The notes under the pieces are model-generated. The model saw nothing but the letters and a program-made list of their open reading frames with translations, searched no databases and was not told the DNA's origin. A program made the translations under genes and the position numbers. Below, piece by piece: positions 11,555 through 15,164 of a stretch of 64,000 nucleotides of DNA. Position 1 is the first letter of the stretch; every line of letters begins with the position of its first letter. Source of the stretch: Bryobacterales bacterium KBS 96 (lineage in GTDB: Bacteria; Acidobacteriota; Terriglobia; Bryobacterales; Bryobacteraceae); NCBI GenBank assembly GCA_000381625.1, contig KB906767.1:3243304-3307303 (forward strand), given 5' to 3'.

Positions 11555-13162
<1,608 letters not shown>

Positions 13163-13480
13163 TTAACTGGCTTTCCCGGCGGGTTTGGCAGCCGGATCCA
13201 GAACACCAAGGACGTCGTCCTCGCGCATGACTAGGTATTCACTGCCATCCAATTTGGTGTCGCTGCCCGAGTACTTCGCAAAGAGGATGCGGTCGCCGAC
13301 TTTGACGTCAAGAGCGGCGAGCGTGCCGTCCTCAAGCCTCTTGCCACGGCCGATGGCAATGACTTCACCCTGTTGCGGTTTCTCCTTGGCCGAATCGGGA
13401 ATGATGATGCCGTTGCGCGTGGTTTCTTGTTCCTCGATCCGCTTCACCAGGATGCGGTCGTATAGGGGTCGAATGTTCAT
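13163..13480 (-). CDS. groES: Co-chaperonin GroES (10 kDa)
   Basis: A 105-residue GroES lid protein. [20 protein letters not shown] is the family start, the mobile-loop region is near residues 16-30 ([20 protein letters not shown]), and the C-terminal beta region contains [12 protein letters not shown]. The tail [11 protein letters not shown] extends it about 8 residues past the usual length. It is the first gene of groES-groEL and has a well-formed promoter 55-83 bases upstream. Confidence 0.98.
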
Positions 13481-13528
13481 AATGTTGTAGTCGGTTCAGA
13501 TAATCTGCAAGTGGAAGCAGCCCACCTA

Positions 13529-13563
13529 TTAACCAATATAGGTTAAGTTGCTTTACTTGTCAA
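13529..13563 (-). promoter_or_regulatory. groESL sigma-70 promoter with operator over the -10 box
   Basis: On the minus strand, TTGACA (13558-13563) is followed after exactly 17 bases by TATATT (13535-13540), an almost ideal housekeeping promoter. The -10 box is flanked by perfect arms, TTAACC-TATATT-GGTTAA (13529-13546), so the spacer of the inverted repeat is the -10 hexamer itself. No CIRCE element is seen. A repressor here would block polymerase directly; the divergent XRE-like gene is the natural candidate (inference). Confidence 0.75.
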
Positions 13564-13633
13564 GGCGCGCATGCCTATACTGGAGCACATCTCTTTACCT
13601 ATGAGAGTTAATTTAAGCAGATAGGGGGTCTCC

Positions 13634-14515
13634 GTGGACGTTCCTCTAGTAATCAGGCAGCGCCTTAAGGAACTGGATCTCGACCAAAAGGACTTGGCGG
13701 CGGCGGCCCAAGTCACCGAATCCTATATTTCACAATTGCTGGCCCGGAAGAAGGCTCCACCCGCACCCAGCCGTACCGATATTTACGAAAAGATAGGCAA
13801 CTTCTTAAGGCTCCCGGAGGGAGAGCTTTCAAAACTAGCCGAGCTTCAGCGTCAGGAAAACCTAAAGAAGAAAGTGGCGGAACCGGCGCGTCCTCTATTC
13901 AAAGAATGTCGAGAGTTGATTCTCCGCAAATGCGAATCGGAGAGAAAAAACGAAATAGGCAGGATTTTCGACAAGGAGCCCTTCGGAGAGCTTGAGCGCT
14001 TAGTAACACAGAAGCTTTTAGATGTCGCAAAGAGAGTGGCCAAAGAGGAATTGGAAAGCGAAGAGTGGCTCCGGCTGATGGCCCAACTCAGTGATCGGAG
14101 CTATGAGCAGATGCGGGTCGCCATCCTCGAATTTCTCGATACCGATGTCTTCAATATCTCCGTAGAAAATTGTGTTGCGTTCCTCGATCCGCTGATTGAG
14201 TCCTGGGACATTGATCTCAAGACCTTTGGCATGGAAATCGTGCTAAACCGCCGGCTCACCGTTGGCCGCCCGAAGCGATTTGAATTCGTTGAAAGGGAAC
14301 CCGAGCAACACTTTGGAATAGAGCCAGGGCTGGAAGAATTTCTTAGGGATACGTCACTGAGCAGCGATGTCACAGAAGAGGAAATCGAGTTCCTACAGAG
14401 ACTGAAGTTCAGAGAAAAGCATCCTGCCCCGATCTATTACTACCGGGAGTTGCAGAATCTGAGAGATCCTCTGCATTTCCGTCCTTCAGCGCCAGCGCCA
14501 AGAGAGTCAGATTAA
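13634..14515 (+). CDS. HTH (XRE-like) regulator divergent from groESL
   Basis: A 293-residue protein with an N-terminal helix-turn-helix (~residues 6-65; QKDLAAAAQVTESYISQLLA is the core) and a ~220-residue C-terminal region rich in charged and hydrophobic residues, possibly a sensor or oligomerisation domain. It starts at GTG 13634 with AGGGGG upstream. The codon use is more AT-rich than that of its neighbours, which may mean recent transfer. It is transcribed away from groES; the shared spacer holds the operator on the groESL -10 box and a TATACT at 13576 that could serve this gene. A chaperonin-controlling role is an inference from position. Confidence 0.8.
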   Translation: MDVPLVIRQRLKELDLDQKDLAAAAQVTESYISQLLARKKAPPAPSRTDIYEKIGNFLRLPEGELSKLAELQRQENLKKKVAEPARPLFKECRELILRKCESERKNEIGRIFDKEPFGELERLVTQKLLDVAKRVAKEELESEEWLRLMAQLSDRSYEQMRVAILEFLDTDVFNISVENCVAFLDPLIESWDIDLKTFGMEIVLNRRLTVGRPKRFEFVEREPEQHFGIEPGLEEFLRDTSLSSDVTEEEIEFLQRLKFREKHPAPIYYYRELQNLRDPLHFRPSAPAPRESD

Positions 14516-14588: not shown

Positions 14589-15164
14589 TCAAATTCCGGC
14601 CGCGGGTAGAGAAACACGGTGTAATATCCCGGTGCGGCGCAATTTGTGGCGCGCGGCGAGCGCATTCAGATCCGTGATGTCGAGCGACTCGGGCCCATCG
14701 TTGTCCTCGCTGCACATCACGGAGTTGGCGCGTGGATTGTGCTGGAGGCCAAGCAGGTGGCCAATTTCATGCACCGCTCCGTGATACATCTCCTTCTTCG
14801 TTAAAGGCGCTCGGGGATCGAATGCCACCCAGCCCTGGAAATCTTTCGCCCACGGCAACTGCGCCTTGCCAAATGAGCCGTCGCTAAAGAGATCGGGAGT
14901 GCCGTCGATTAGCTGGATCGCGCATCCCGTCGTGTTGTCTTCATGCCAGGTCATATCCAGTACGCCGCTCCAGAAATCGAGCGCCCGCTCAAATTCGGCC
15001 CCGAGGACCGGGTTGGCGGTCGAGATGCGTACTCCCAGATCCATGTGACCTTGCTGGAATAGCGTTGAACTCCGGCGACAGGGTTCGAACTGATCAACCC
15101 GGCCGGGTTGTTGGCCTGCTGTGAGCATGGCGCTTTCAAGCAGCAGGAGAACGATGAAAACCAA
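14589..15164 (-). CDS. Secreted matrixin-like zinc metalloprotease
   Basis: A 191-residue protein with the full metzincin zinc motif HEIGHLLGLQH (His132, Glu133, His136, Gly139, His142) and the Met-turn ANSVM (Met150) 8 residues later. This is the matrixin/astacin-like arrangement for extracellular peptide hydrolysis. The N-terminus VFIVLLLLESAML is hydrophobic and probably a short signal peptide or membrane anchor. The start (TTG at 15164) is uncertain because no ribosome site is obvious. The gene stands alone on the minus strand, 125 bases beyond the VWFA gene stop. Confidence 0.85.
   Translation of the reverse strand: MVFIVLLLLESAMLTAGQQPGRVDQFEPCRRSSTLFQQGHMDLGVRISTANPVLGAEFERALDFWSGVLDMTWHEDNTTGCAIQLIDGTPDLFSDGSFGKAQLPWAKDFQGWVAFDPRAPLTKKEMYHGAVHEIGHLLGLQHNPRANSVMCSEDNDGPESLDITDLNALAARHKLRRTGILHRVSLPAAGI

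Follow-up and report, generated by a model that had tools for sequence, protein, structure and literature searches.

The HTH gene that stands divergent to groES in the DNA analysed here (a stretch of 64,000 nucleotides, referred to as the window) probably encodes an autoregulated repressor of a chaperone regulon that is separate from HrcA; we infer both its binding and the sign of its action. The intergenic region contains two palindromic operators, of which operator 1 coincides with the −10 box of the groES promoter. Both operators are conserved at the starts of related HTH genes, and the same palindrome recurs in other genomes as a solitary site upstream of chaperone genes.

The groES-regulator intergenic region

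The genes and signals of the locus are as follows (coordinates are those of the window):

11555–13138, minus strand: groEL (PF00118)
13163–13480, minus strand: groES, the first gene of the divergent transcript (PF00166, 6.7e-35)
13481–13528, minus strand: 5' leader of groES, retaining only the start of the leader RNA conserved in related loci
13529–13546, no strand: operator 1, TTAACC-N6-GGTTAA, with its centre on the groES −10 box
13535–13540, minus strand: −10 box of the groES promoter, TATATT, read in the window; its minus-strand TAnnnT letters are conserved
13553–13558, plus strand: possible, weak −35 box for transcription of the HTH gene (TTACTT), placed back to back with that of groES
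13558–13563, minus strand: TTGACA, the groES −35 box, separated from the −10 box by 17 bp; exact in 75 of 97 regions
13576–13581, plus strand: probable −10 box of the HTH gene's own promoter, TATACT, from reading the letters
13594–13611, no strand: operator 2, TTTACC-N6-AGTTAA, shortly after the probable promoter of the HTH gene
13634–14515, plus strand: HTH gene, encoding an XRE-type regulator of 293 amino acids, GTG start (Pfam HTH_3)
14315–14476, plus strand: C-terminal part of the regulator, residues 228–281, with a weak resemblance to the DdrO dimerisation domain

An earlier note on this DNA had described an inverted repeat centred on the groESL −10 box. Direct reading of the window bears this out: TTAACCAATATAGGTTAA occupies positions 13529–13546, with the TTAACC and GGTTAA arms flanking TATATT. 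The minus-strand promoter TTGACA-N17-TATATT of the same note is also present, with TTGACA at 13563–13558, TATATT at 13540–13535 and a spacer of 17 bp, and the divergent 293-residue HTH protein was recovered as an open reading frame at 13634–14515 with a GTG start. The note had overlooked operator 2, TTTACCTATGAGAGTTAA at 13594–13611, which has two mismatches compared to a perfect palindrome and is weaker than operator 1; the centres of the two operators are 65 bp apart. Both −35 boxes abut back to back within CTTGTCAAG (13556–13564), and the HTH gene's own promoter probably sits between operators 1 and 2. A mechanical scan for the −10 box of this promoter, anchored on TTGTCA, gave no sharp spacing.

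At up to two mismatches, the operator pattern has two matches in the window, both in this intergenic region. With 0.66 matches expected and two reached by 15 of 100 shuffles, the window count alone is not significant; the significance of the operator comes from its conservation and from the solitary sites in other genomes. Across the host genome (6.69 Mb, 96.7% complete), the pattern has 70 sites at up to two mismatches against 230 for the reversed pattern, so there is no excess of operators. Among the matches listed for this genome, the sole exact one is operator 1 of the window, and one of the two with a single mismatch belongs to a decayed paralogous copy of the region (C1:4503378–4506395, locus L002), in which a duplicate of the HTH gene is accompanied by a truncated groEL, both operators and the leader. 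As there is no further strong site among the matches listed, the host regulon may consist only of groESL-2 and the regulator itself.

The host genome contains two full groEL genes and one truncated groEL. Its one match to HrcA (PF01628) is located elsewhere, not at the window regulator. The other groESL copy, about 20 kb away, is preceded by a CIRCE-like element with three mismatches, whereas the best CIRCE alignment upstream of the window groES has mismatches at 7 of 18 positions; the groES promoters of this genome are thus one with CIRCE and one with the operator. The absence of CIRCE, which the earlier note had reported, holds for the entire 64-kb window at up to three mismatches.

Conservation of the operators and their predicted targets

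Among 399 genomes of the class, 90 encode relatives of the HTH protein; these come from 44 of 136 genera, are distributed patchily and sometimes have several copies. The 14 named relative loci are from Acidobacteria or Terriglobia, several of them labelled Bryobacterales or Bryobacteraceae, and the nearest named relative of the protein is 89% identical (L017). From 105 stretches around HTH relatives and host loci, together with the named loci, 119 HTH starts at 117 loci were obtained; leaving aside exact repeats and starts with fewer than 180 bases upstream, 110 upstream regions were compared.

Scored over 12 positions, operator 1 has no mismatch in 54 of these regions, one in 37, two in six and at least three in 13. 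A match with at most one mismatch is thus found in 91 of 110 regions, compared to 2 of 2200 dinucleotide shuffles, and operator 2 is found at up to two mismatches in 85 of 110, compared to 19 of 2200; in both comparisons the regions are kin by descent and hence not independent samples. The minus-strand TAnnnT letters are retained in the centre of operator 1 and not in that of operator 2, so that conservation extends to the overlap with the −10 box. The divergent −35 box was sought in the 97 regions that have operator 1 at up to two mismatches. TTGACA, 16 to 18 bp from the −10 box, is exact in 75 of them and has one mismatch in 11 (exact in 1 of 1940 shuffles); of the 90 regions in which it has at most two mismatches, 83 have a spacer of 17 bp. 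The spacing between the operators falls into clusters of 53–55, 60–62, 64–66 and 70–71 bp in the 110 regions; an additional spacing of 47 depends on weak second sites. Operator 1 is absent in the most divergent relatives (L016, L152, L154, L155 and L160).

Both operators recur at HTH gene starts irrespective of the divergent gene. The operator is best described as the regulator's own cassette, retained whatever gene stands divergent to it, and it is not specific for groES. On the divergent side, groES or groEL was found in 29 of 117 HTH loci, a count in which L065 repeats L012, L014, L075 and L100 are fragments or weak, and the stretches reach no farther than about 5 kb or the end of the contig. 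In divergent operons of the L118/L124 type, groES and groEL come last, after genes, in this order, of family C3 (in L124), a PAS/GGDEF-like protein (named by eye) and families C8, C7 and C1. C8 resembles the membrane protein Transgly_assoc, below Pfam's cut-off; single representatives of C1, C3, C6, C7, C17, C18 and C19 matched no Pfam family at 0.01.

We also analysed which element precedes groES genes in general. Of 52 genomes with the HTH gene, 51 gave a groES match; 30 loci, 40 of the further places listed and the loci already collected yielded 94 distinct groES starts, reduced to 93 by dropping one with a short upstream stretch. Within 400 bp upstream, CIRCE (up to 4 mismatches in 18) was found in 46 regions, the operator (up to one in 12) in five, both in none and neither in 42, several of the latter being operon-internal with the promoter farther off. 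Mononucleotide shuffles of the same stretches reach each limit in 1 of 1860 cases. The five promoters with the operator are those of L017, L161, L149, L231 and the window itself (L207). The earlier note would have been contradicted by CIRCE in other copies together with HrcA control of this locus; instead, the two elements share none of the 93 promoters, and the CIRCE-like element of the host belongs to the other groESL copy.

An exact search for the consensus TTAACYANNNTARGTTAA was performed in the same 399 genomes. It is present in 42: two of the 309 that lack the HTH gene (G077 and G194) and 40 of the 90 that have it, leaving 50 of the latter with no exact site. This comparison is in part circular, since HTH promoters of these very genomes had served to derive the consensus. 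As expected from this origin, 37 of the 61 exact sites are at HTH gene starts. The remaining 24 are distributed over 23 promoter regions, none of them at the start of an HTH gene; these solitary sites are the cleaner test and carry the argument. Sixteen of the 90 genomes that have the HTH gene account for 21 of the solitary regions, and the 309 that lack it for two (Fisher 1.5e-9, relatedness not corrected), while the reversed pattern gives 13 sites in the 399 genomes, five in the 90 and eight in the 309.

By the genes that follow, eight of the 23 solitary regions have Hsp20 first, six have groES or groEL in the operon (groES being the first gene once), five have C3 first, with no groES before the end of the stretch or contig, and four precede genes recognised neither as chaperones nor as members of these operons. 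In 14 of 23 cases, then, an exact solitary operator stands before Hsp20 or an operon that includes groES or groEL; the Hsp20 label comes from PF00011 for one member and from tblastn to the same cluster for the remainder. With the arms conserved both in orthologous regions and at solitary groES and Hsp20 promoters, the search of related genomes that the earlier note had proposed came out in its favour. Its proposal of a chaperonin repressor of an uncommon type probably stands in its main point and is widened, as the operator is not specific for groES and the predicted control reaches Hsp20 and multi-gene groESL operons.

Other genes also accompany the regulator. In L005, L006, L007, L011, L012 and L017 it is followed by a glycosyltransferase-like gene of about 762–776 amino acids and then by a gene of about 490 amino acids, the L017 copy of which is a relative of beta-1,2-mannobiose phosphorylases, below NCBIfam cut-offs. 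In the window, a matrixin-like metallopeptidase gene (14589–15164, minus strand; PF00413, 33.8 bits, cut-off 24) is convergent with the HTH gene; no counterpart was recognised by eye among the gene clusters recurring at HTH loci.

The regulator and its proposed action

The N-terminal part of the protein is a Cro/CI-type HTH domain (HTH_3, PF01381; 26.6 bits, cut-off 23). Pfam lists only HTH families for the protein, without an HrcA domain (PF01628), and the best of ten PHROGs families, mostly HTH repressors matching through the N-terminal part, has a value of 3.3e-6. The NCBIfam model couple_hipB was rejected, with 21.5 bits against a cut-off of 71.65. AlphaFold2 with 50 sequences gave a model of the whole protein with a pLDDT of 81.6 and a pTM of 0.65; residue 76 onward, predicted alone, reached 78.1 and 0.58. 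By Foldseek and a second structural comparison, the N-terminal 60–95 residues match HigA, DdrO, SinR, ClgR and 434 Cro. In the third helix, Thr28, Ser30, Tyr31 and Ser33 do not vary among 50 homologues; Cys100 is present in all 50 and Cys180 in 47.

The models suggest that the C-terminus weakly resembles the dimerisation domain of DdrO, which we treat as a lead. The seven best structural rows for the C-terminal model are DdrO chains, with E-values from 0.025 to 1.8, and superposition onto the isolated DdrO dimerisation domain (6ro6_G) covers 50 columns with an rmsd of 2.3 and a TMt of 0.66; the whole model aligns with 6jq1_B over 127 residues (Z 8.3, rmsd 10.5). Foldseek returned nothing at E 0.001 or better for either model, and the second structural table is dominated by the HTH (residues 1–91), so that other folds missing from it mean little. 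Profile comparison with DdrO is marginal (E 0.12 with the full-length protein and 33 with only the C-terminal stretch), a C-terminal profile lacking the HTH gave no DdrO match up to E 5, and no Pfam family was matched by more than two members among the C-terminal parts of 50 homologues.

In the mechanism that we infer, for the HTH protein as binder, its dimeric binding, the repressing sign and the inducing signal alike, a dimer of the protein would bind both intergenic palindromes. Occupancy of operator 1 would cover the −10 box of the near-consensus sigma-70 promoter and keep RNA polymerase off groESL, and occupancy of operator 2, at the start of the HTH gene's transcript, would limit the protein's own synthesis. 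Release of the protein under stress would raise both transcripts. In related genomes, this protein and this operator would jointly form a regulon of groESL, Hsp20 and small proteins, running beside the HrcA/CIRCE circuit of another groESL copy.

Several alternatives have to be weighed. The regulator could control only itself, with groES a passenger behind a divergent promoter and operator 1 serving autoregulation at a distance. Such a role would fit the retention of the operator pair where the divergent gene is not groES, and the presence of groES or groEL on the divergent side in 29 of 117 loci. It would leave unexplained that the divergent −10 and −35 boxes are retained at operator 1, and that solitary operators precede Hsp20 and groES genes with no HTH gene alongside; we consider it unlikely. 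Given that XRE-type activators such as ClgR exist, the protein might instead be an activator or dual regulator of groES. A promoter with an exact TTGACA and a 17-bp spacer should need no activator, however, and an operator placed on the −10 box of such a consensus-like promoter suits a repressor, which makes activation improbable.

That HrcA is encoded in the genome would allow the window groESL to be controlled by HrcA and CIRCE, or else by a heat-shock sigma factor, with the palindrome arising by chance. Given the lack of CIRCE in the window, the 7 of 18 mismatches upstream of groES and the conservation of the arms in orthologous regions, this is very hard to credit. A further proposal concerns the release of the repressor, which might be effected by an IrrE/ImmA-type (M78) protease cutting the C-terminus, as for DdrO. 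Besides the C-terminal resemblance, the stretch aligned with the DdrO cut site contains a proline, Pro264, in 50 of 50 homologues and Phe259 in 44 of 50. Yet the host genome, at 96.7% completeness, has no M78 match at E 0.001, and the presence of M78 proteins is not linked to that of the HTH gene (19 of the 32 genomes that have it, 11 of the 20 that lack it); derepression by this route is distinctly unlikely. The preferred reading remains that of a repressor with its own chaperone regulon.

The chaperonin circuit to be expected here is HrcA/CIRCE, a repressor with a palindromic operator at groESL promoters. The regulator of the window has the same type of arrangement, in a genome that also encodes HrcA, but its protein family and operator are unrelated, and the two elements were never on the same groES promoter among 93. 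Other proteostasis regulators are ClgR, an XRE-type regulator of clp genes, and HspR (with HAIR) and CtsR, which belong to other DNA-binding families. The N-terminal fold is common to ClgR (3f51) and the HTH protein, but the match spans residues 1–87 only. DdrO of Deinococcus is an XRE repressor that recognises a 17-bp palindrome, RDRM, and is cleaved by IrrE.

According to published reports, the ddrO gene itself bears the motif and motifs are located in or near promoters (PMC5552922), and DdrO is 129 residues long and cleaved between Leu106 and Arg107 (PMC7907104). The likeness consists of the XRE-type HTH, the motif at the regulator's own gene and in or near promoters and, tentatively, the weak C-terminal structural match, while the regulator here is 293 residues long with a long middle region; it also differs in its predicted chaperone targets, its 18-bp operator of another sequence and the absence of a match to an IrrE-type protease in the host genome. 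In Myxococcus xanthus, one paper describes MXAN_4468, encoded beside a duplicate groEL, as an orphan response regulator that lowers groEL transcription, acting via HrcA and binding the 3' end of its own gene (PMC9040617). By that account it is similar in adjoining a duplicate groEL and lowering its transcription, as predicted here, and different in not being an XRE protein on a promoter palindrome. To judge by titles and abstract openings, the open-access literature surveyed contains no account of an XRE-type chaperone repressor that uses this operator in Acidobacteria. For much of the class, where 90 of 399 genomes have the HTH gene, we predict a second, separate circuit that has a regulator and an operator of its own; it would offer a way for duplicate groESL copies to be expressed under different conditions.

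A conserved leader RNA

Many of the divergent transcripts start with a common, conserved and structured leader, seen in L005, L009, L012, L014 and others. In several loci, it has a Shine-Dalgarno-like GAGGAGG between CAACC and TTG. The 29 leaders analysed were selected for holding CTAAG and CTTAG, so the five invariant loop pairs prove nothing. In the main hairpin, both sides change in nine of the ten pairs and 88.6% of cells are paired, more than in two other helices (64.3% and 72.4%). The structure as a whole is 83.4% paired, compared to 76.3% in shuffles (reached by 0 of 500) and 27–43% when slid. The loop is able to pair with the strand before the ribosome site, and L121 and the f6 group have different letters there that could pair.

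When genomes were scanned with a covariance model of the hairpin, 21 of 30 that have the HTH gene gave a match, as against 0 of 20 that lack it, all 20 from the same family. The former figure is in part a product of the model's own construction, since many of these genomes had supplied leaders for it; some of the matches are not at an HTH gene. The model has no match at the place of the window groES leader in the host genome. This leader is, to judge from its sequence, truncated, with only its beginning kept. Rfam gave no match at gathering scores in nine loci; window positions 13100–13750 had none even at E-values up to 5. A further leader copy in the host genome (L292, C1:4492507–4492553, minus strand) is behind a TTGACA-17-TACGAT promoter in which no operator arms were recognisable by reading. 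Computed operator scores for L289, L292 and L293 were set aside, these loci not being in RNA orientation and hence scored on the opposite side.

A DdrO-like repressor with a sensing region (Cys100 and Cys180) and paired operators, to which the leader RNA adds a second control, may conceivably constitute a two-layer proteostasis switch, of which the window groES would have lost the RNA layer; we put this forward tentatively. In many loci, for example L118 and L076, a third, weaker operator-like sequence, ATAACC-N6-RGTTCA, is located about 138–160 bp before the HTH start. It falls within the leader region, where a DNA site and an RNA hairpin may overlap.
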